Assembly: GCA_001664505.1 (NCBI GenBank)
Contig: CP011806.1
Span: forward strand, 4,780,494-4,844,493
Direction of reading: 5' to 3'
Source of the DNA: Acidobacteria bacterium Mor1
GTDB taxonomy: Bacteria > Acidobacteriota > Polarisedimenticolia > Polarisedimenticolales > Polarisedimenticolaceae
DNA length: 64,000 nt
Shown here: positions 2,636 through 17,268 of the stretch, piece after piece
Layout of the letters: each line of letters begins with the position of its first letter
How positions within the stretch are numbered: position 1 is the stretch's first letter
Program-made: the position numbers and the translations under genes
The notes under the pieces: generated by a model
What the model saw: only the letters and a program-made list of their open reading frames with translations
Database searches by the model: none
Told to the model about the DNA's origin: nothing

Positions 2636-4351
2636 ATGGGTTGTCCCGTCACACGGATCGAGCATTTCCGGGGTAGGGCGCTCGGGCTGGTGTGGTTCTG
2701 CCTGCTCCTGGCCGTCCCGCTCTCGGCTGCGGTTCCCGAGGATCCGAAGATCGAGGAACTCGAGACCCTTCTGGCCGGCCAGCAGGGCGCCGACGCCCTC
2801 GACACATTGCTGGAACTGGCCCGGTCGACCTCGATACGCGCGCCGCTGCGCTCCCTCGACTACGCCGATCGCGCCGAGGCACTGATCGAGGGGCACCCAT
2901 CGGACCAACGCCGGTTCAACCTGGAGGCAGTGCGGGCCACCGCCTTCGGCAAACGGGGAGAGTGGGAGGCCGCCGAACTCCACGGACGCCGCGCCCTCGA
3001 ACTGGCCCCGCGGCTGGACGACCCCGGCGCGGCGATCTACGCCCGGCGCCGGCTGGGCCGTGCGCTCAGCGGACAGGAACGTCACGAAGAGGCGCTGAGG
3101 ATCCTCTCCGAGGCGCGGGAGCTGGCCGAGCAGGGCGGGGATGTCCGCAGCCGGGTCGTCAGCGCCATGTCGGTCGGCCGGGGTCAGATCGAGGCGATGC
3201 GCTATGAAGAGGCCTTCGAGACGATGCTCGAGGCCTACCTGATCGCCGACCCGCATCTCGACGACAGCGAAACCATCGAGCCGGCGCTGGTCGCGGATCT
3301 CTACAACGAACTCGGATCGATCTACCACTACACCGAGAGCTACGACCGGGCGATCGAGTACTACCGGAAGGCGCTGCCCCACTGGGAGGGACAGGGACAG
3401 CTGGAGATCGTCTCGCTGCAAAACCTGGCGGCGTCGATGTCCCTGTCCGGACGCTACGCCGACACCCTGGAGATCAACGAACGAGCGTTGGCGCTGGCCG
3501 ATGAGGTGGAAGACCGCATCGGGCAGGCCCAGATCCGGATGAACATCGCCTTCAACCTCAACGGTCTGGGGCGCTCGAACGAAGCCCTCGAATACTCACT
3601 GGCGGCGGTGGACTACTTCGAGCGGATGGACGCGAGCCCCCGCTGGATGGCCTGGGCCCGTCAGGGGCTGGCGCATTCCCTGCTACGCACGGGAGAGCCC
3701 GTTCGCGCCCGGGCTTTGCTCGAAGATTCGCTGCGCATCGCCGAAGAGTCCGGGGACCGGCGCCTGGAGCGTTCGACGGTGGAGCATCTGGCCGAAGTTC
3801 ACACCGAGCTCGGGCAACCCGGGCAGGCGCTGATGGCTCAGCGCAGGCTGCAGGAAATCGATCAGGCCAACCGGGAAGACCGGCGCCGCAAACTCGCCGA
3901 CCTGCAGGCCCGGTTCGAGCTCCTGAAACGGGATCAGCACATCGAACGGCTGGAAGCGGACCTCGCCCTCGATCGGTTGCGCCTCGAGCGGGAGCGGACC
4001 ATCCGCATCGCCATGATCGTCGTCGCCTTCGCGGTGGGCACGTTGGCCCTGATGGCCTGGTTGGCGTGGCGGGCCCAGCGGGCCTCCAACAGCCGATTGG
4101 CCGAGACCCACCGGCAGCTTCAGCAGACCCATCGCAACCTCGTCGAGCTCAACGCCCGGGCCGAGGCCCAGAGCCGGGAGATCAAGATCCTGCAGGGCAT
4201 GCTCCCGATCTGCAGCAGCTGCAAGAAGATCAAGGACGAGAGTGGCGACTGGAACCAGCTCGAGGCCTACATCGACGACCACTCCGAAGCGTCGTTCACC
4301 CACGGCTACTGCCCGGAGTGCGCCGCCGCGACCCTGCGGGATTCAGGCTAG
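2636..4351 (+). CDS. TPR repeat membrane protein with C-terminal Cys4 (CxxC...CxxC) output domain
   Basis: A 571-aa protein starting with a signal-like segment (residues ~14-32, 'LGLVWFCLLLAVPLSAA'). TPR-type helices follow from about 40 to 420, a charged coiled coil to ~450, one transmembrane helix at ~454-478 ('AMIVVAFAVGTLALMAWLAW'), a second coiled coil, and a terminal cysteine motif (PICSSCKKIKD from ~residue 522, then HGYCPECAA). This C-terminal motif is usually appended to response regulators and PAS or histidine kinases; here there is no kinase or receiver domain. The topology (extracytoplasmic TPR, cytosolic coiled coil and zinc-like knuckle) suggests a sensor or scaffold. It lies just upstream of the ECF sigma operon on the same strand, but a ~100-nt gap separates them. 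Function unknown. Confidence 0.75.
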   Translation: MGCPVTRIEHFRGRALGLVWFCLLLAVPLSAAVPEDPKIEELETLLAGQQGADALDTLLELARSTSIRAPLRSLDYADRAEALIEGHPSDQRRFNLEAVRATAFGKRGEWEAAELHGRRALELAPRLDDPGAAIYARRRLGRALSGQERHEEALRILSEARELAEQGGDVRSRVVSAMSVGRGQIEAMRYEEAFETMLEAYLIADPHLDDSETIEPALVADLYNELGSIYHYTESYDRAIEYYRKALPHWEGQGQLEIVSLQNLAASMSLSGRYADTLEINERALALADEVEDRIGQAQIRMNIAFNLNGLGRSNEALEYSLAAVDYFERMDASPRWMAWARQGLAHSLLRTGEPVRARALLEDSLRIAEESGDRRLERSTVEHLAEVHTELGQPGQALMAQRRLQEIDQANREDRRRKLADLQARFELLKRDQHIERLEADLALDRLRLERERTIRIAMIVVAFAVGTLALMAWLAWRAQRASNSRLAETHRQLQQTHRNLVELNARAEAQSREIKILQGMLPICSSCKKIKDESGDWNQLEAYIDDHSEASFTHGYCPECAAATLRDSG

Positions 4352-4452: not shown

Positions 4453-5019
4453 ATGATGGCGATGGTGATGGAAACTCAAGAGCCCACCGGCGGCGAAGCG
4501 TTCTGGCAGCAGGCCTACCGGGACCACGGCGCGTCGGTGCTCGGCTTCCTCCAGCGGCGGCTGGGTCAGCGTGACGTGGCCGAGGACCTGCTGCAGGAAA
4601 CCTTCATCCGGGCCATCCGCTTCGACTCGTTTCAGGGGGGCAATCTTCGGGGCTACCTGATCTCGATCGCCCGCCACCTGATCATCAACAAGAGCCGGCG
4701 CAAGCAGCTGCTCGTCCCCGTCGAAACACCGCGGGAAGACATGCAGCCCTTCGAGACCGTGGCCTCCGACGAGCACACCCCTGAAGAGACCACCGCCGGA
4801 ACCCTGCTCCACGAACGGCTGGGGCGGGCCCTCCACAAACTGAAACCGGACCACCGCCGGGCCTTCGAGCTCGCCGTTCTGGAGCAGTACTCCTACGGCG
4901 AGATCGTCGAGACCACCGGTTGGAGCCTGGCCCGGGTCAAATCCAACGTCCATCGGGCGCGCAAGAAGCTGATCGAGGAACTCGGTCCGCTGGCGGCCGG
5001 ACGAGGTACGACGTCATGA
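4453..5019 (+). CDS. ECF-type RNA polymerase sigma factor (sigma-70 family)
   Basis: 188 aa, the usual ECF length. Region 2 is visible as 'AEDLLQETFIRAIR' (about residues 36-50), followed by the 'LRGYLISIARHLIINKSRR' core-binding helix. Region 4 is the 'LKPDHRRAFELAVLEQ...SYGEIVETTGW...VKSNVHRARKKL' helix-turn-helix. It should direct RNA polymerase to a small regulon, probably including its own operon. The stop codon overlaps the ATG of the next gene (ATGA), so it is translationally coupled to a putative anti-sigma factor. Start choice is uncertain: ATG codons lie at 4453, 4456, 4462 and 4468. A TACTACGCT stretch at 4442-4450, just before the first ATG, could be a -10 element, which would favour one of the later starts. 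Confidence 0.88.
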   Translation: MMAMVMETQEPTGGEAFWQQAYRDHGASVLGFLQRRLGQRDVAEDLLQETFIRAIRFDSFQGGNLRGYLISIARHLIINKSRRKQLLVPVETPREDMQPFETVASDEHTPEETTAGTLLHERLGRALHKLKPDHRRAFELAVLEQYSYGEIVETTGWSLARVKSNVHRARKKLIEELGPLAAGRGTTS

Positions 5020-7039: not shown

Positions 7040-7075
7040 CGGGGGAGCGTAGACGAACGCTCCCCCGTTTTCTTT
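7040..7075 (+). terminator. Rho-independent terminator of the sigma-factor operon
   Basis: A perfect 11-bp stem (cgggggagcgt at 7040-7050 with acgctcccccg at 7057-7067) closes a 6-nt loop and is followed at once by ttttcttt. It lies 27 nt after the stop of the three-repeat gene. The T-tract overlaps the stop codon (7074-7076) of the convergent minus-strand gene. No A-tract precedes the stem, so it should act only on + strand transcripts. Confidence 0.9.
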
Positions 7076-8048
7076 ACCGGCGCGAGAGCTCCCGGTACTC
7101 ACGCTGCTGCTCGGGGGTCAGCCAGGAGAGCGCCTGGCCGATGTCCACCGGCGCGAAGGCGTTGACCTTGGTGCGCTGGATCGGGGTCAGCGCCATGCGG
7201 CTGAACGCCCGGCGTTCGATCTGCTTCTTCTGATCCGAATCCCGGGCCGTACGGTAGGAGTCGTCGAGAGCGCCCACCGGCAGCAGGCCGAGCTCGCCCG
7301 CCTCGCCGCGATCCGAGGCATCCTCGAGGTAGACGCCGTCGGCGGCCTCGAGTTTGACGGCGGCCTGGAGCAGCTCGCCCAGAGGCAGGATCTCAGGCCG
7401 GTAGCGCACCCGGGTCACCTCGCGGCCGTCGAACCAGCCGGCCTCGGTGGTCAGAACGCCGGGGAGGCGGCCGAACTTGAACTCACCGGTCCAGAAGCAG
7501 TGTTGGGAGAAGATCGCCGTGGCCACGTCCTTGCCCCGATCGGAGCGGGCGGCGCGCAGGTAGGCGGGCACCTCGCGGCCGGCCGCCTCGAGGGAGGCGA
7601 TCATCCGCGGAACCAGGGCGTCGACGGTCCAGACCCGGTCCTTGCGCGGAATCAGATCGGCGCCCTCGGCGTCGAGGAAGCGCACGACCTGGTAGTTCCA
7701 GGATGGCTCGTTGTAGCTCTTGAGCAGCTCGGCATCCCGCCCCGGCCGGTTGTTGTAGATCAGGAGCGGCACGAAGGCGTTCTCCACGGCGGCCACGATC
7801 AGCGGATGGCTCATGACTTCGCTACCGAACTGCTTGCAGCCGGCGCAGCCGGGGACCTCCTGGAAGAAGGCGAATACCGGTTTGCCCGATCGGCGGGAGT
7901 CGGCGAGGGCCCGGTCGTAGTCCCGGCCCCAGTCGACGGGGCCGACCTCTACCGGGTTCCGCTCGCCCTTGCCGGCGAGGGTGACTCCCGGAATCGCGAG
8001 TCCGAACAGGGTCAGGGTGATCCAGAGGGTGCGGGTGTATTTCTTCAT
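7074..8048 (-). CDS. Exported thioredoxin-like protein with MsrA-like C-terminal half (VPGC-x-x-C motif)
   Basis: 324 aa with an N-terminal signal peptide ('LFGLAIPGVTLAG', cleavage near residue 25). Residues ~40-150 form a thioredoxin-like domain whose redox site is VPGCAGC (C68, C71). The VPG-Cys context recalls the VPGUxxT thioredoxin-like (seleno)protein family, with Cys in place of Sec. From ~180 the sequence 'HCFWTGE' then 'LPGVLTTEAGWFDG' and 'VTRVRYRPEILPLGELL' parallels the GCFWGxE / PGVxxTxxGYxGG / VxYDPxxxSYxELL pattern of MsrA, with C184 at the position of the MsrA catalytic cysteine. A periplasmic redox role, perhaps methionine sulfoxide repair with its own reductant domain, is inferred. 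Start ATG at 8048 follows a weak gggaa ribosome site. Confidence 0.7.
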   Translation of the reverse strand: MKKYTRTLWITLTLFGLAIPGVTLAGKGERNPVEVGPVDWGRDYDRALADSRRSGKPVFAFFQEVPGCAGCKQFGSEVMSHPLIVAAVENAFVPLLIYNNRPGRDAELLKSYNEPSWNYQVVRFLDAEGADLIPRKDRVWTVDALVPRMIASLEAAGREVPAYLRAARSDRGKDVATAIFSQHCFWTGEFKFGRLPGVLTTEAGWFDGREVTRVRYRPEILPLGELLQAAVKLEAADGVYLEDASDRGEAGELGLLPVGALDDSYRTARDSDQKKQIERRAFSRMALTPIQRTKVNAFAPVDIGQALSWLTPEQQREYRELSRR

Positions 8049-11043: not shown

Positions 11044-11409
11044 CGCGAGCGCGCCCTTCTCGGCCCCTCCCGGGCCTCTCTCATGGGTTTCGAGCCGTTG
11101 TCACGATTCCGTTCAGGAATTGTCTCTCAATCCGCAGTGGCCAAGTCCTTTCTTTGTCGTACTATGCAAGTCCCCCAACGACAGAAACGCGCGAATCAAC
11201 TAGGTGTTCTGTAAGACCAACGGGGTGAAGTACGCGTAGAGGGCCGGTCGGTGGTCCGGCCCGAACTCGAGACATTGTCCTCGTCTCGTTCAGGGGATCC
11301 ATCCTGCCTGAGTGAGAGAACGCGGATCCGCGCACGGTACGGCGCATCTGTCTTGACAGGTGACCGGACGCGGCTTCGTCGAGAACCGAGAGGGGAGGCT
11401 CGGATCTTG
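11044..11409 (+). other. Intergenic leader upstream of the giant beta-propeller/TSP3 gene
   Basis: No convincing gene. A short GC hairpin (ggccc/gggcc, 11062-11076) followed by tctctct may end the upstream transcript. A 7-bp stem (gggccgg 11241-11247 with ccggccc 11256-11262) lies in the probable leader. A TTGACA hexamer at 11353-11358 has no matching -10. The long leader could be regulatory, but I see no known riboswitch consensus. Confidence 0.4.
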
Positions 11410-14400
11410 ATGCGTTTGAAAAACCTTTTGGCCGTCTGCTTGCTCGCGTGCCTGGCGGGCGCGGTGGCCGCTCAGGACTGGAACCAGTGGCGTGGGCCGG
11501 GACGCAACGGCGTCGCGTCGTCGGTCGGCCTGCCCGATTCGTGGACCCCGGGTCCCGCGGGCAGCGAGAACGTCATCTGGCGGCAGGCCTGCGATATCAA
11601 CCGCGAAGCCGAGACCGCAAACGCTGCGGCCGATGCCGGTTCGCCGATCGTGATCGGCAGCGGCGACTCCGGCCGGGTGTTCTTCATGCACTCGATGGAG
11701 AGCCGGGTCTCCTCGCGGATGATCTCCCTGCGCGAGAGCGACGGCGCCTTCCTGTGGGACTTCGCCACCGAGGTCTACTCCGGCGACGGATTCAACATCT
11801 GTCCCAACAACCAGGGCGCGGCGACCCCCTACGCCGACAGCGCCAACCAGCGGCTGTACTACGGCACCAAGGAAGGCCGGCTGCAGGCGCTCAACTTCAA
11901 CGGCAACCTGCTGTGGCGGCGCCTGACCCAGGAAAACGTCAACAACGAAGACCCCGACGCGTTCAACGTCACGATCCACAACTGCGGCAACTCCACGCCG
12001 CTGCCCCACAGCGATCTGGTGATCTTCTCCCTGGCGCCGCACTACGAGGAGCCCGCGGCGTCGCCCAAGCTGGTGGCGCTGAATCGCAGCACCGGGGCGA
12101 CGGTCTGGACCCAGAACTTCGATCCCTACGCCGGGCCGCTGTTCAAGTTGCTCCACGGTTCCTGGTCATCGCCGGTCATCGGCACGCCCCCGGACGGGAT
12201 CACCCGGGTCTACATCCAACTCGCCGACGGTAGCGTCCGCGCCGTTCGCGCCGACGACGGCGTGCTGCTCTGGACTCACGAAGACGACTCCGGCTTCCAG
12301 CGCACCCAGTCGACCATGAGTCACCCCGAGGGGCAGGGGAGCGAGGGCATCGCCACGCCGGTCTACAACCCGCCCGGACCCTTCGAGGTTTCCAGCGGTG
12401 CGATCTACGTTTCGGCCGGTGAGGACCCCTCCCACGACATCCTGGCGCCGGTCGGTTCCGGCCGGGTCTGGAAGCTGAACGCCCAGACCGGGCAGCAGAT
12501 CTGGCACTACCCGCCGGCGACGAACAACGACCTGGGCAACATCATCGGCTCGGCGGCGGTCGCCGGGAACCGGGTCTACGTCGGTGACACCGAGGGCTAC
12601 CTGCATTGCATCAACGCCACCGACGGCACCCGCATCTGGCGGGAGTGGCTCGGCGGCGGCGCGATCTGGGCCTCGCCGACGGTGGCCGACGGCAAGGTCT
12701 ACATCGGGACCCAGGACGGCGACTTCTACATCATCGAAGACTCCGACGTGTTCAACGTGCTGGACGTGGACAACGTCGGCTCGCGGATCGCCTCGTCGGT
12801 CGCCGTGGCCAACGGTTCGATCTACATCAAGTCCGACTTCTACGTCTGGAAGGTCTCCACCGGGGAAGGGGGCTCTTGCCCCACCGACTGCGACGACGGC
12901 GACCCCTGCACCATCGACCAGTGCTCCGAGTCCTTCGTCTGTGAACACACCCTGGTCGCCGACGACGACCTCGACGGCTTCTGCAACACCATCGACAACT
13001 GTCCCTCCCGGGCCAACGCCAGCCAGTCCGACGCGGATGCCGACGGCACCGGCGATGCCTGCGACCGCTGCACCGACACCGACGGCGACGGCTTCGGCAA
13101 CCCGTTCTACGGATCCAACACCTGCGCCATCGATAACTGCCCCTCCCAGAGCAACCCGGGACAGGAGGACTTCGACGCCGACGGTTCCGGCGACGTCTGC
13201 GACAGCTGCACCGACGGCGACGGGGACGGCTTCGGCAATCCCGGGTTCCCCGCGAATACCTGCGCCACCGACAACTGTCCGCTGGACAGCAACCCGGACC
13301 AGACCGATACCGACGGCAACGGCGTAGGGGATGTCTGTGACGGCGACGATCCGGACAACGACGGCCTGCTCGGGGGCAACGACCCCTGCGGCGACGATCC
13401 GCGCAACCGCTGCTTCGGCCCCGTGGCCACCGACGGCACCACCGGCAACCCGATCCGGGTCAACGCCAACAGCTCCGGCAACGAGTGCGCCGGCGACAAG
13501 ATCGACTGCAACGGCGACGCCTGGTTCGGCGACTTCGGTTTCAACACGGGAAACAATGCCCGCTGCAACCTGGCCCCGGGCGAGGGTTGCGTCATCACCG
13601 GGATCGACACGATCTTCGGTTGCGACGACGAGACCACCGAGGACCTGTTCCAGTGCGAGCGGTTCGACTTCCCGTCGAACCCGGAGCTGCAGTACAGCTT
13701 CGATGTGCCCGACGGCAACTACCTGGTCAACCTGCTGTTCGCCAACACCTTCGACGGTTCGGTCAACGTCGGCGACCGGGTGTTCGACATTCGCATCGAG
13801 GGCGCCCTGGCCTTCGACGACTTCGACCAGGTCGCGGCAGCGGGCGGTAGCGGGATCGCGGTGGTGCGCTCGGCGCGGGTGGCCGTGGCAGACGGCAACG
13901 GCCTGCAGATCGAGCTGCTCCACGTGATCGATAACCCTGCGATCAAGGCGATCGAGGTGCTCGAGGCCGCCGGTTGTACGGATAACGCCCAGTGCGACGA
14001 CGGCAACGTCTGCACCGACGATACCTGCAACGCCGGCAACTGCGAAAACACGTTCAATACCGCGCCCTGCGACGACGGCATTGCCTGCACCGGGTCCGAT
14101 GTCTGTAGCGCCGGGACCTGCGCCGGCGTCGACGCGTGTCCCGCCGATCAGACCTGCAACCTCGGCAGCGGCATCTGTGAGGGTTCCGAGTGCGTCGTCG
14201 ATACCGATTGTGACGACGGTGACGTCTGTACCGCCGACTCCTGCACCAACGGGTTCTGCGGCAATGCGCCGTTGCCCGATGGGGACAGCGACGGCATCTG
14301 CGACGACCTGGACAACTGCCCGTCGGATTCCAACCCGGGCCAGGAAGACGCCGACGCCGACCTGATCGGGGATGTCTGCGATACCTGCACCGATACCGAT

Positions 14401-17268
14401 GGTGACGGTGCAGGCGATCCGGGCTATCCCGCCAGCACCTGTCGCATCGACAACTGCCCGACGATCCCCAACGAACAGCGTGACCGTGACCGGGACGGCC
14501 TGGGCAACGCCTGCGACGATTGCCCCGACGATCCGCAGAACGACGCCGATAGCGATGGTGTCTGCGGCGATGTGGATAACTGCCCGGGCGACGCCAACGC
14601 GGCCCAGATCGACGGCGACGCGGACGGCATGGGCGACGTTTGCGATGCCTGCCCCGCCGATGCGGCCAACGATGCGGATAGCGACGGCGTCTGCGGCGAC
14701 GTGGACAACTGCCCGGGCGACGCCAACGCGGCCCAGACCGACGGCGACGCGGACGGCCTGGGTGACGTTTGCGACGCCTGCCCCGCCGACCCGGCCAACG
14801 ACGCGGACTCCGACGGCGTCTGCGGCGACGTGGACAATTGCCCGGGTGACGCCAACGCGACCCAGACCGACGGCGACGCGGACGGCCTGGGTGACGTTTG
14901 CGACGCCTGTCCCGCCGACCCGGCCAACGATGCGGATAGCGACGGCGTCTGCGGCGACGTGGACAACTGCCCGGGTGACGCCAATGCGGCCCAGACCGAC
15001 GGCGACAGCGACGGCCTCGGCGATGTCTGCGACACCTGCCCGGCAGACCCGGACAACGATATCGACTCCGACGGCGTCTGCGGCGATGTGGACAACTGCC
15101 CGACGACGCCGAACCCGGCCCAGACCGACAGCGACGGCGACGGCATCGGAGACGCCTGCGACACCTGCTCCGACATCGACAGTGACGGGGTCTGCGATGC
15201 CGGCGACAACTGCCCGTCGATTGCCAACGCCGATCAGGCCGACGGCGACAGTGACGGCCTGGGCGATGTCTGCGATGCCTGTCCCGCCGACCCGGCCAAC
15301 GACGCCGACTCTGACGGCGTCTGCGGTGACGTGGACAACTGCCCGGGAGATGCCAACGCGGCCCAGACCGACGGCGACGCTGACGGCCTGGGCGACGTTT
15401 GCGATGCCTGCCCGGCGGATCCGGCCAACGATACGGACGCCGACGGCGTCTGCGGCGACGTGGATAACTGCCCGGCGACCCAGAATGCCGATCAGGCTGA
15501 CGGTGACAGCGACGGCCTCGGTGATGTCTGCGACACCTGTCCGGTGGACCCGGCCAACGATGCGGACGCCGACGGCGTCTGCGGCGACGTGGACAACTGC
15601 CCGGCGACCCAGAACGCCGATCAGGCCGACGGCGACAGCGATGGTCTGGGCGATGCGTGCGACACCTGTCCCGCGGACGCAGCCAACGATGTCGACAGCG
15701 ACGGCATTTGCGGCGACGTGGATAACTGCCCCACGACTCCGAACCCGGGCCAGGAAGACACCGACGGTGACGGCATCGGCGACGCCTGTGACTTCGCCGG
15801 TGGCGTCGATACCGACAACGACGGGATGGAAGACGGAGTCGACCCCTGTCCCGTCGACGCCCTCAACCGTTGCTACGGCCCCGTGGCCGTCGACGGCACC
15901 GAGGGGACCCCGGTCCGGATCAACACCAACAGCACCAACCTCGAGTGCGCGGGCAACAAGGTCGATTGCAACGGCGACATCTGGTACGGCGACTTCGGCT
16001 TCAACACCGGCCGCAACTCGGTATGCAACCTCGGCGGTGGCGGCGAGGGCTGCGTGATCTCGGGGATCGACACGGTCTTCGGCTGCGACAGCGAGGAGAC
16101 CGAGGACATCTTCCAGTGCAACCGCTGGGACCGGACGAACCCGCCGCCCCTGGAGTACAGCTTCGACGTGCCCGACGGCAGCTACCTGGTGAACCTGTTG
16201 TTCGCCAACAGCTTCGACGCGACCAGCAACCCCGGCGACCGTGTCTTCGACATCCTGATCGAGGGCAATCTGGCTTACGACGACTTCGATGAGGTTGCCG
16301 CATCGGGTGGTCCGGCCAACGCCGTCGTCCGTGCAGCGGTGGTCGATGTGACCGACGGCAACGGGCTGCAGATCAGCTTCCGCGAAGAGGTCAGCTTCCC
16401 GCAGATCAAGGGTATCGAGGTGCTGGCCGCCATGGGAGACGGGGCCTGCAGCCTGGACACCGACTGCAACGACAATGACCCCTGTACCCAGGATGTCTGC
16501 AACACCGGCACCGGGCAGTGCTCCAATGACCCGCTGCCCGATAGCGACAGCGACGGGTTCTGTGACGCCGTCGACAACTGTCCGCAGGACCCGAACCCCG
16601 ACCAGGCCGATCCCGACGGTGACGGCCGCGGCGCCGCCTGCGACGCCCTGGAAGGGGATGGGGACAACGACGCTCTGGCCGACGGCCTCGATCCCTGTCC
16701 GGACGACGGACGCAACCTCTGCTTCGGGCCGGTCGCCATCGACGCAGTGACCAGTTCCCCGGTGCGGGTCAACGCCGGCGATGCCGGGGCCTGCGCCGGT
16801 ATCCGGCAGGATTGCGCCGGCAACTTCTGGGTCGCCGACAACGGCGCGACCTCCGGAGGTTCGTCCTCCTGCGTCGACGGCAGCGACTGCGAGGTCGGCG
16901 GCCTGCCCGAACTGTTCGGCTGCGAAGACGCAAACACCGTCGATCTGTTCGAGTGCGCCCGGGACGACCTGCCCCCGCCGCCGGACCTCAGCTACAGCTT
17001 CTCCCTCGCTCCGGGCACCTACGTGGTCAATCTGCTGTGGGCCAACGTCGGCGGCAGCCAGTCGGTCGAGCGCACCATGGACGTCACGATCAACGGCGTC
17101 CTGGTTCATGACGATGTGGCGCCCCACGTGATCGCAGGAGGCTTCGGCAAGGCGGTGGTGCAGTCCGCGCTGGTCACGATCGTCGGAGCCGAGGGGTTGA
17201 CCATCGACTTCGGTGCCGTGGATGCGCGGCCGTCGATCTCGGCCATCGAGGTGCTGAGCCAGCCCTGA
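11410..17268 (+). CDS. Giant secreted protein: PQQ-like beta-propeller, TSP3 arrays, three malectin-like domains
   Basis: 1952 aa from ATG 11410, chosen because GAGGGGAGG lies just upstream and a signal peptide follows (MRLKNLLAVCLLACLAGAVA, cut near residue 22). Residues ~23-485 are a PQQ-like (quinoprotein-type) beta-propeller with repeated 'GxVxAxxxxTGxxxW' blades. TSP3-type calcium repeats (DxDxDGxGDxCD) occupy ~517-657, ~957-1477 and ~1704-1770. A cysteine-rich 'CDDGNVCTDD' segment spans ~854-957. Three malectin-like carbohydrate-binding domains sit at ~667-853, ~1487-1673 and ~1771-1950, each with 'YSFDVPDGxYLVNLLFAN'-type cores. There is no recognised C-terminal sorting signal. It probably works at the cell surface as a calcium-stabilised glycan-binding or adhesive protein. 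The propeller is closely matched by the stand-alone protein at 57115-58608. Confidence 0.85.
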   Translation: MRLKNLLAVCLLACLAGAVAAQDWNQWRGPGRNGVASSVGLPDSWTPGPAGSENVIWRQACDINREAETANAAADAGSPIVIGSGDSGRVFFMHSMESRVSSRMISLRESDGAFLWDFATEVYSGDGFNICPNNQGAATPYADSANQRLYYGTKEGRLQALNFNGNLLWRRLTQENVNNEDPDAFNVTIHNCGNSTPLPHSDLVIFSLAPHYEEPAASPKLVALNRSTGATVWTQNFDPYAGPLFKLLHGSWSSPVIGTPPDGITRVYIQLADGSVRAVRADDGVLLWTHEDDSGFQRTQSTMSHPEGQGSEGIATPVYNPPGPFEVSSGAIYVSAGEDPSHDILAPVGSGRVWKLNAQTGQQIWHYPPATNNDLGNIIGSAAVAGNRVYVGDTEGYLHCINATDGTRIWREWLGGGAIWASPTVADGKVYIGTQDGDFYIIEDSDVFNVLDVDNVGSRIASSVAVANGSIYIKSDFYVWKVSTGEGGSCPTDCDDGDPCTIDQCSESFVCEHTLVADDDLDGFCNTIDNCPSRANASQSDADADGTGDACDRCTDTDGDGFGNPFYGSNTCAIDNCPSQSNPGQEDFDADGSGDVCDSCTDGDGDGFGNPGFPANTCATDNCPLDSNPDQTDTDGNGVGDVCDGDDPDNDGLLGGNDPCGDDPRNRCFGPVATDGTTGNPIRVNANSSGNECAGDKIDCNGDAWFGDFGFNTGNNARCNLAPGEGCVITGIDTIFGCDDETTEDLFQCERFDFPSNPELQYSFDVPDGNYLVNLLFANTFDGSVNVGDRVFDIRIEGALAFDDFDQVAAAGGSGIAVVRSARVAVADGNGLQIELLHVIDNPAIKAIEVLEAAGCTDNAQCDDGNVCTDDTCNAGNCENTFNTAPCDDGIACTGSDVCSAGTCAGVDACPADQTCNLGSGICEGSECVVDTDCDDGDVCTADSCTNGFCGNAPLPDGDSDGICDDLDNCPSDSNPGQEDADADLIGDVCDTCTDTDGDGAGDPGYPASTCRIDNCPTIPNEQRDRDRDGLGNACDDCPDDPQNDADSDGVCGDVDNCPGDANAAQIDGDADGMGDVCDACPADAANDADSDGVCGDVDNCPGDANAAQTDGDADGLGDVCDACPADPANDADSDGVCGDVDNCPGDANATQTDGDADGLGDVCDACPADPANDADSDGVCGDVDNCPGDANAAQTDGDSDGLGDVCDTCPADPDNDIDSDGVCGDVDNCPTTPNPAQTDSDGDGIGDACDTCSDIDSDGVCDAGDNCPSIANADQADGDSDGLGDVCDACPADPANDADSDGVCGDVDNCPGDANAAQTDGDADGLGDVCDACPADPANDTDADGVCGDVDNCPATQNADQADGDSDGLGDVCDTCPVDPANDADADGVCGDVDNCPATQNADQADGDSDGLGDACDTCPADAANDVDSDGICGDVDNCPTTPNPGQEDTDGDGIGDACDFAGGVDTDNDGMEDGVDPCPVDALNRCYGPVAVDGTEGTPVRINTNSTNLECAGNKVDCNGDIWYGDFGFNTGRNSVCNLGGGGEGCVISGIDTVFGCDSEETEDIFQCNRWDRTNPPPLEYSFDVPDGSYLVNLLFANSFDATSNPGDRVFDILIEGNLAYDDFDEVAASGGPANAVVRAAVVDVTDGNGLQISFREEVSFPQIKGIEVLAAMGDGACSLDTDCNDNDPCTQDVCNTGTGQCSNDPLPDSDSDGFCDAVDNCPQDPNPDQADPDGDGRGAACDALEGDGDNDALADGLDPCPDDGRNLCFGPVAIDAVTSSPVRVNAGDAGACAGIRQDCAGNFWVADNGATSGGSSSCVDGSDCEVGGLPELFGCEDANTVDLFECARDDLPPPPDLSYSFSLAPGTYVVNLLWANVGGSQSVERTMDVTINGVLVHDDVAPHVIAGGFGKAVVQSALVTIVGAEGLTIDFGAVDARPSISAIEVLSQP
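14575..15795 (+). repeat. Tandem 129-bp coding repeat (43-aa double TSP3 unit), ten copies
   Basis: The codons for 'DNC' recur at 14575, 14704, 14833, 14962, 15091, 15205, 15334, 15463, 15592 and 15721. Spacing is exactly 129 bp except one 114-bp step, which lost five codons. Each unit encodes one DNCPxxxNxxQxDxDxDGxGD block plus a VCDxCPxDxxND block. Neighbouring units differ mainly at synonymous or near-synonymous sites, which indicates recent expansion by unequal crossing over or slippage within the large secreted-protein gene. Confidence 0.95.

Follow-up and report, generated by a model that had tools for sequence, protein, structure and literature searches.

We found that one gene in the 64-kb stretch of DNA analyzed here (the window) encodes an apparently exported protein in which a thioredoxin-fold half is followed by a half derived from MsrA, and that relatives of this protein carry selenocysteine (Sec) in the active site of each half. 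We see an even chance that the protein is an exported, self-reducing MsrA-type S-oxide reductase acting as a relay within one chain.

The fusion protein and its family

The open reading frame (ORF) has 324 codons plus a stop codon; its features are collected in Table 1. A preliminary description, made from the DNA alone, had proposed a fusion of a thioredoxin-like and an MsrA-like domain, and the translation bore this out: the ORF lies at 7074-8048, with C68 and C71 in the motif VPGCAGC and C184 within HCFWTGE. The protein has no other cysteines, and all three codons are TGC. The protein had also been taken to be exported, and an N-terminal signal was recognized by eye. Residues 1 to 27 had a low pLDDT in the predicted model, which was made with AlphaFold2 from 13 sequences. 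The model as a whole had a pLDDT of 84 and a pTM of 0.54, and at this pTM it gives no predicted relative placing of the thioredoxin and MsrA-like halves.

Table 1. Features of the fusion gene and its product in the window
Feature	Position	Strand	Basis
Whole gene, exported thioredoxin/MsrA-like fusion, 324 aa, NF041383	7074..8048	-	Translation and NCBIfam
Signal peptide, about residues 1-25 (KKYTR, hydrophobic run, ...TLA)	7974..8048	-	By eye
Thioredoxin-fold domain, residues 37-159	7572..7940	-	Pfam Thioredoxin_7 and fold matches
VPGCAGC, residues 65-71, redox pair C68/C71	7836..7856	-	Family alignment and codons
MsrA-like core, residues 174-280	7209..7529	-	Profile and fold comparisons
HCFWTGE, residues 183-189, in place of MsrA GCFW	7482..7502	-	Profile alignment
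C184 codon, predicted nucleophile	7497..7499	-	Family alignment and codon
E210, aligned with MsrA Glu94/C. oremlandii Glu55	7419..7421	-	Profile alignments
C-terminal helical tail, residues 281-324, matching C. oremlandii MsrA helical domain	7077..7208	-	Fold match

The protein matched the NCBIfam family NF041383, "VPGUxxT family thioredoxin-like (seleno)protein, type 2," with 343.4 bits against a cut-off of 275. The match spanned positions 1 to 285 of the 287 in the profile and was thus full length, and the VPG[C/U]xx site of the family was present as VPGCAGC at residues 65 to 71. With a score above the cut-off, the suggested link to the VPGU selenoprotein family held. Together with the conserved sites described below, this score argues that the occurrence of the motifs in the protein is more than chance. 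Since the whole protein belongs to NF041383, the fusion architecture is already known and named; the name gives the architecture and no function. The family appears as the hypothetical selenoprotein OS_HP5 in a 2022 review (PMC9312934), and a 2026 review of prokaryotic selenoproteins lists it with the motif VPGU and a "No. of Sec" of 1 (PMC13188914); the part of the latter review available to us does not relate the second half to MsrA. The literature searched contained no description of a second Sec in this family; NCBI records may annotate one. What is new here is the reading of NF041383 as a thioredoxin-MsrA relay with two Sec sites, and the window gene as a new member of the family. NF041382 (Trx_VPGUxxT_one) was rejected as the home of the protein, with 126 bits against a cut-off of 350. 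Positions 21 to 160 of that profile matched the thioredoxin half, the second half was unmatched, and none of the genes in 28 genomes scored above the NF041382 cut-off.

The family alignment contained 49 rows, 46 with each half. L017 to L029 duplicate L004 to L016 and were excluded from the counts, the gene of L014 runs off the end of its contig, and the variants found later (L099 to L103, L105 to L107, and L109) are outside the counts of 46. In the phylum of the window, the family was found in 1 of 297 sampled genomes, which was the window's own genome. Of the 337 genomes sampled around G299 (Luteolibacter, Verrucomicrobiota), 8 had a member, as did 36 of the 343 sampled around G302 (Rubripirellula, Planctomycetota). 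One record among the plasmids searched, a Sphingomonas plasmid, contained a member, and no relative was found in the viral contigs searched. In a tree of 43 rows, for which the bootstrap had not settled, the window protein fell into a well-supported group (100/97) of 14 rows, whose named members with a phylum belong to Verrucomicrobiota and Planctomycetota. A gain of the window gene by transfer would fit these data.

The claim of a thioredoxin fold in the first half was confirmed both by Pfam and by the predicted fold. Thioredoxin_7 (PF13899) matched residues 39 to 108 with 35.2 bits against a cut-off of 27, and the closest folds, with Z scores of 12 to 15, were 3f9u and the UAS/AGR/DsbH and DsbD-gamma domains (3f9u, 15.3; DsbH, 13.4; DsbD-gamma, 12.8). 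In all 46 rows with the thioredoxin half, site 68 was either Cys (21 rows) or Sec (25 rows) and site 71 was Cys.

The MsrA-derived half

The second half of the window protein is derived from MsrA, as seen from profile comparison, fold, and conserved residues. When 45 second halves were compared by hhalign with 17 canonical MsrAs (proteins that a motif pattern picked out from 17 of 24 MsrA loci of related genomes), the probability was 98.7 and the E value 3e-16 over 83 columns. In an hmmsearch of PDB sequences, the second-half profile retrieved MsrAs from an E value of 1e-9 (42 bits), and Pfam PMSR was matched by 40 of 40 family second halves at an E value of ≤0.1; the alignment used for the PDB search and the Pfam scans (A4) held 40 of the 46 second halves. 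The window protein itself narrowly missed the gathering score of 23.7 for MsrA (PF01625), with 21.2 bits for the whole protein and 23.5 bits for the second half alone. The NF041383 profile also matched, below its cut-off, both canonical MsrAs of the window's genome.

In the predicted model, the second half had an MsrA fold, with Z scores up to 13.9. The best match for residues 173 to 324 was the selenoprotein MsrA of C. oremlandii (Z of 13.9 over 147 to 148 residues, with an rmsd of 3.0). In the alignment with 4u66, residues 173 to 324 of the model were paired with residues 5 to 207 of the chain, the C-terminal helices included. Other MsrAs gave Z scores of about 11 to 13, mostly over residues 174 to 280, and their alignments stopped near residue 280. 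The helical tail matched that of C. oremlandii MsrA by fold only, without a sequence match. The preliminary description had tied its MsrA-like assignment to the predicted fold, and the fold proved MsrA-like, in agreement with the hhalign and PMSR results.

It is very improbable that the second half is instead an HMA-like heavy-metal-binding domain, a reading that comes from the plain beta-alpha-beta-beta-alpha-beta fold left without the loops. The second-half profile did match HMA domains of a copper ATPase and MerP weakly (1p6t, E value of 0.0013 and 22 bits; 1afi, E value of 0.037), but the same search gave an E value of 1e-9 for MsrA, and Pfam HMA matched 0 of 40 second halves at the E value at which PMSR matched all of them. 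Moreover, there is only one Cys or Sec, and W186 and E210, at positions that we take to be MsrA hallmarks, are invariant. An HMA metal-binding domain was therefore rejected on the PDB profile search and the Pfam scan.

Several MsrA residues were strictly kept. C184-F185-W186 aligned with the GCFW catalytic motif, and site 184 was Cys in 31 and Sec in 15 of the 46 rows with the MsrA-like half, so that C184 stands, as had been claimed, at the MsrA nucleophile position. W186 was present in all 46 rows, as was G188, an invariant Gly one place after the varying position behind W186. The residues before C184 and after W186 both vary across the family, in line with the earlier remark that the glycines of GCFWG are replaced. 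E210 was Glu in 46 of 46 rows (a 47th letter in this column is the tail of L012, a row without a second half, and was not counted). It aligned with Glu94 of N. meningitidis MsrA (numbering from PMC6210582) and Glu55 of C. oremlandii MsrA (numbering from PMC4333827), which is the general-acid position of MsrA.

Other parts of the active site are missing. Relative to MsrA, the family profile has a 17-residue deletion, which takes out the loop bearing Tyr82, and an 11-residue deletion, which takes out the QGxDxG stretch. Site 235, paired with Tyr134 in a region where the profile alignment is uncertain, is Ala in the window protein and Cys in 34 of 46 rows. Tyr82 and Tyr134 are both missing from the window protein, its second half is without a resolving Cys, and Glu alone is kept among the hydrophilic active-site residues of MsrA. 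Cys235 is a possible resolving Cys of the 34 members that have it. Canonical MsrA (PF01625) thus shares with the window half its fold, Cys-Phe-Trp, and Glu94, whereas it has the Tyr82 loop, QGxDxG, Tyr134, and a resolving Cys, none of which are found in the window half. It is therefore no standard MsrA.

Because the deleted loops carried two MsrA active-site residues, there is room both for repair of methionine sulfoxide (MetO) and for a new redox role. It is a serious possibility, if short of probable, that the MsrA fold was turned to another substrate, with C184 or Sec184 still the redox nucleophile fed by the thioredoxin half; candidates would be a different sulfoxide, a sulfenate or disulfide in a protein, a peroxide, or a species containing selenium or a metal(loid). 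The loss of two substrate-side loops and both tyrosines while Cys/Sec, Trp, and Glu stayed invariant favors such a change, and the loop loss is family-wide (45 rows), extending beyond the window gene. In addition, each of the 18 genomes tested already has at least one canonical MsrA, which also counts against the MetO repair reading. On the other side, the methyl-binding F185 and W186 and the general acid E210, which methionine sulfoxide needs, were kept. The proton donor of N. meningitidis MsrA is given as Tyr82 or Tyr134 (PMC6210582), so that neither alone is called essential.

Selenocysteine at both active sites

An in-frame UGA was found exactly at the Cys184 position in 15 relatives, and in 14 of them it was confirmed as a second UGA besides that of VPGU. 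For the 43 rows that cover sites 68 and 184, the combinations, in this order, were Cys/Cys in 20, Sec/Sec in 14, Sec/Cys in 9, and Cys/Sec in none. A partial row (L064) had UGA at site 184; L109, on a different contig of the same genome, had UGA at site 68 and may be the other end of the L064 gene. The selenocysteine context of the family had been noted before for C68, and this VPGU link stood, but the Sec at the second site in relatives had been missed. NF041383 is listed with one Sec (PMC13188914). Of the full-length relatives found here, 14 have two, and the window protein has none, both of its sites being Cys.

The UGA at site 184 was followed by a SECIS-like hairpin starting 15 nt past the first base of the UGA (consensus, GAGGCCGAGTTCGGCCTC). 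Over 15 sequences, 92.3% of the cells were paired, and 3 of the 7 pairs showed changes on both sides. The covariation score was 0.298, compared with 0.157 in shuffles; 0 of 500 shuffles reached it, and when the hairpin was slid to other positions, the score was at most 0.171. The folding z at site 184 was lower in UGA rows than in Cys rows, with a P value of 1e-5 that is too small because the rows are related. At site 68, the same comparison of UGA and Cys rows gave a P value of 0.067, which was not significant, and the hairpin argument is therefore limited to site 184.

A tRNA-Sec of at least 57 bits was present in 27 of 30 UGA-bearing genomes compared with 11 of 23 Cys-only genomes (Fisher P = 0.001), and in 14 of the 15 genomes with UGA at site 184. 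The next match below this threshold had 52.9 bits; at the default threshold, all 53 genomes gave a "match" because ordinary tRNAs score weakly. The UGA-bearing genomes without a strong tRNA-Sec were G815, G707, and G806, whose assemblies may be incomplete.

On the tree, 3 changes were needed for the Sec/Sec state and 7 for the Cys/Cys state, so that the exchange between Sec and Cys seems to have happened repeatedly in the family. We regard this exchange as strong evidence for C184 being a redox nucleophile, and a redox role of C184 is well supported. The use of Sec in both active sites by relatives argues that both halves are working catalysts. The window gene itself has no in-frame UGA at the three sites and is the all-Cys form. 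Its genome contains a tRNA-Sec (72.7 bits) and SelB (330 bits, above the cut-off); Sec should therefore be usable there, yet it is absent at the sites of the window gene.

A selenoprotein MsrA with the motif GUFWG was also seen at L081 (G812). PMSR matches with one in-frame TGA comprised L081 and rows of G749, G742, G713, G306, G684, and G304, so that a Sec MsrA may accompany the fusion in several of these genomes.

A putative relay within one chain

The proposed reaction follows MsrA chemistry. C184, or Sec in some relatives, would attack an S-oxide at its sulfur; the most likely substrate is methionine-S-sulfoxide in proteins of the envelope. The F185/W186 pocket would hold the substrate and E210 would protonate it. 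The product would then depart, leaving C184 as a sulfenic (selenenic) acid. In a second step, C68 would form a mixed disulfide with C184, from which C71 would bring release; the fused thioredoxin half is put forward as the resolver because the MsrA-like half of the window protein is without a resolving cysteine. Finally, a membrane carrier of the DsbD/CcdA type would reduce the C68-C71 disulfide. The window's genome encodes one DsbD_TM protein (163 bits), and electron supply by a DsbD-type protein is plausible. Methionine sulfoxide as the likely substrate is the weakest step, since the hydrophilic side of the pocket is down to one Glu. The relay is supported by the presence of only three cysteines in the window protein and by the splitting of the halves in one metagenome-assembled genome (MAG; see below).

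Proteins of related design are known. Neisseria PilB, a periplasmic MsrAB, is an exported chain whose own thioredoxin-like domain feeds its MsrA domain and which is reduced by DsbD (PMC6210582, available part). PilB resembles the window protein in being an exported chain with its own thioredoxin-like domain and an MsrA domain. It combines a canonical MsrA with MsrB, whereas the window protein has a trimmed MsrA half and a thioredoxin half of the Thioredoxin_7/DsbD-gamma kind; no MsrB (SelR) domain was matched in it by a Pfam scan up to an E value of 10.

The 1-Cys MsrA of C. oremlandii (4u66 and 4lwj) is like the window half in having a helical tail and no resolving Cys and in its Glu55, which corresponds to E210; its Sec site is the Sec184 site of the window protein's relatives. 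To our knowledge, it is not known as an exported protein. Unlike the window protein, it has no thioredoxin half and is reduced in trans by glutaredoxin (PMC4479559), and it keeps the canonical Tyr47 and Tyr90 (PMC4333827), which the window protein is without. Its helical domain is described as essential for the active site (PMC4333827, available part). Its reduction by a glutaredoxin speaks for a relay of the proposed kind, but thioredoxin does not reduce the C. oremlandii enzyme (PMC4479559), which speaks against one. Taken by analogy, the best reading would be a PilB-like relay built on a 1-Cys MsrA.

We also propose, more tentatively, a Sec form of this relay, in which a Sec thioredoxin half would recharge a Sec MsrA-derived half in the same chain and the loop-deleted pocket would take a new class of S-oxides or related substrates outside the cytoplasm. 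If so, the window gene would be the all-Cys form in a host with selenocysteine machinery, and the family would be a natural case of a Sec reductant covalently joined to the Sec MsrA that it feeds. A 2011 paper, cited by its title in PMC4479559, concerns tandem use of selenocysteine, with a selenoprotein glutaredoxin reducing a selenoprotein MsrA; those are separate proteins, whereas NF041383 is one chain. Placing the MsrA half and locating a second Sec on its nucleophile yield a specific enzyme hypothesis, in which the residues to be mutated are named.

Split and variant forms bear on the relay in both directions. In one Rubritalea MAG, in which mis-binning is possible, a thioredoxin half with Sec (L106) and an MsrA half with its own leader (L105) lie on different contigs. 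A fusion in most genomes and separate genes in one fit partners in one reaction. The relay is opposed by L103 (G677), with a degenerate thioredoxin half that has lost VPGC and an MsrA half with CFW intact, and by five forms that have a thioredoxin half but no MsrA core: L107 and L100 consist of the thioredoxin half by itself, L101 and L102 (G835 and G879) join a VPGU/EPGU thioredoxin half to a long charged helical tail, and L099 1-1889 (G800) has a VPGU thioredoxin half and the family helical tail with the MsrA core between them missing. In the 34 rows with Cys235, the thioredoxin half could be less necessary if this Cys is the resolving one.

These thioredoxin-only forms suggest that the thioredoxin half also has a separate use of its own. 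We consider it improbable, however, that it is the working part, an envelope disulfide or selenenylsulfide reductase, with the MsrA-like half being a docking or substrate-choice module of minor redox role. This reading draws on the five genomes in which, the split pair aside, the thioredoxin half occurs with no MsrA core, and on the distribution of Sec, which occupies site 68 in 25 of 46 rows but site 184 in 15 of 46 and is found at site 184 alone in zero full-length rows. Nevertheless, site 184 is Cys or Sec wherever the MsrA-like half exists, with Sec and the hairpin in 15, and selenocysteine would hardly be retained at structural positions.

Clustering of the ORFs at family loci, with flanks of 1.5 to 5 kb, revealed no real common neighbor. 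Judged by position, the largest clusters were the family gene and apparent other-frame ORFs on it, and the remaining clusters linked only two to four loci each. On the Sphingomonas plasmid (L031, NZ_CP065714.1), an msrA lies about 5.6 kb upstream of the family member, and a gene for a sulfite oxidase-like oxidoreductase lies immediately downstream. The window gene adjoins a GNAT-like ORF (below the Pfam cut-off) and an ORF without any match above the cut-off. Elsewhere in the window, a TPR protein (2636-4351, plus strand) ends in a zinc-ribbon-like tail, CSSCKK...CPEC, and adjoins an ECF sigma factor (4453-5019). A 2005-aa ORF (11251-17268, plus strand) has a PQQ-like start, thrombospondin type 3-like calcium repeats that form a tandem array at 14493-15731 with a period of 129/258, and repeated malectin-like modules; the modules were named by eye.
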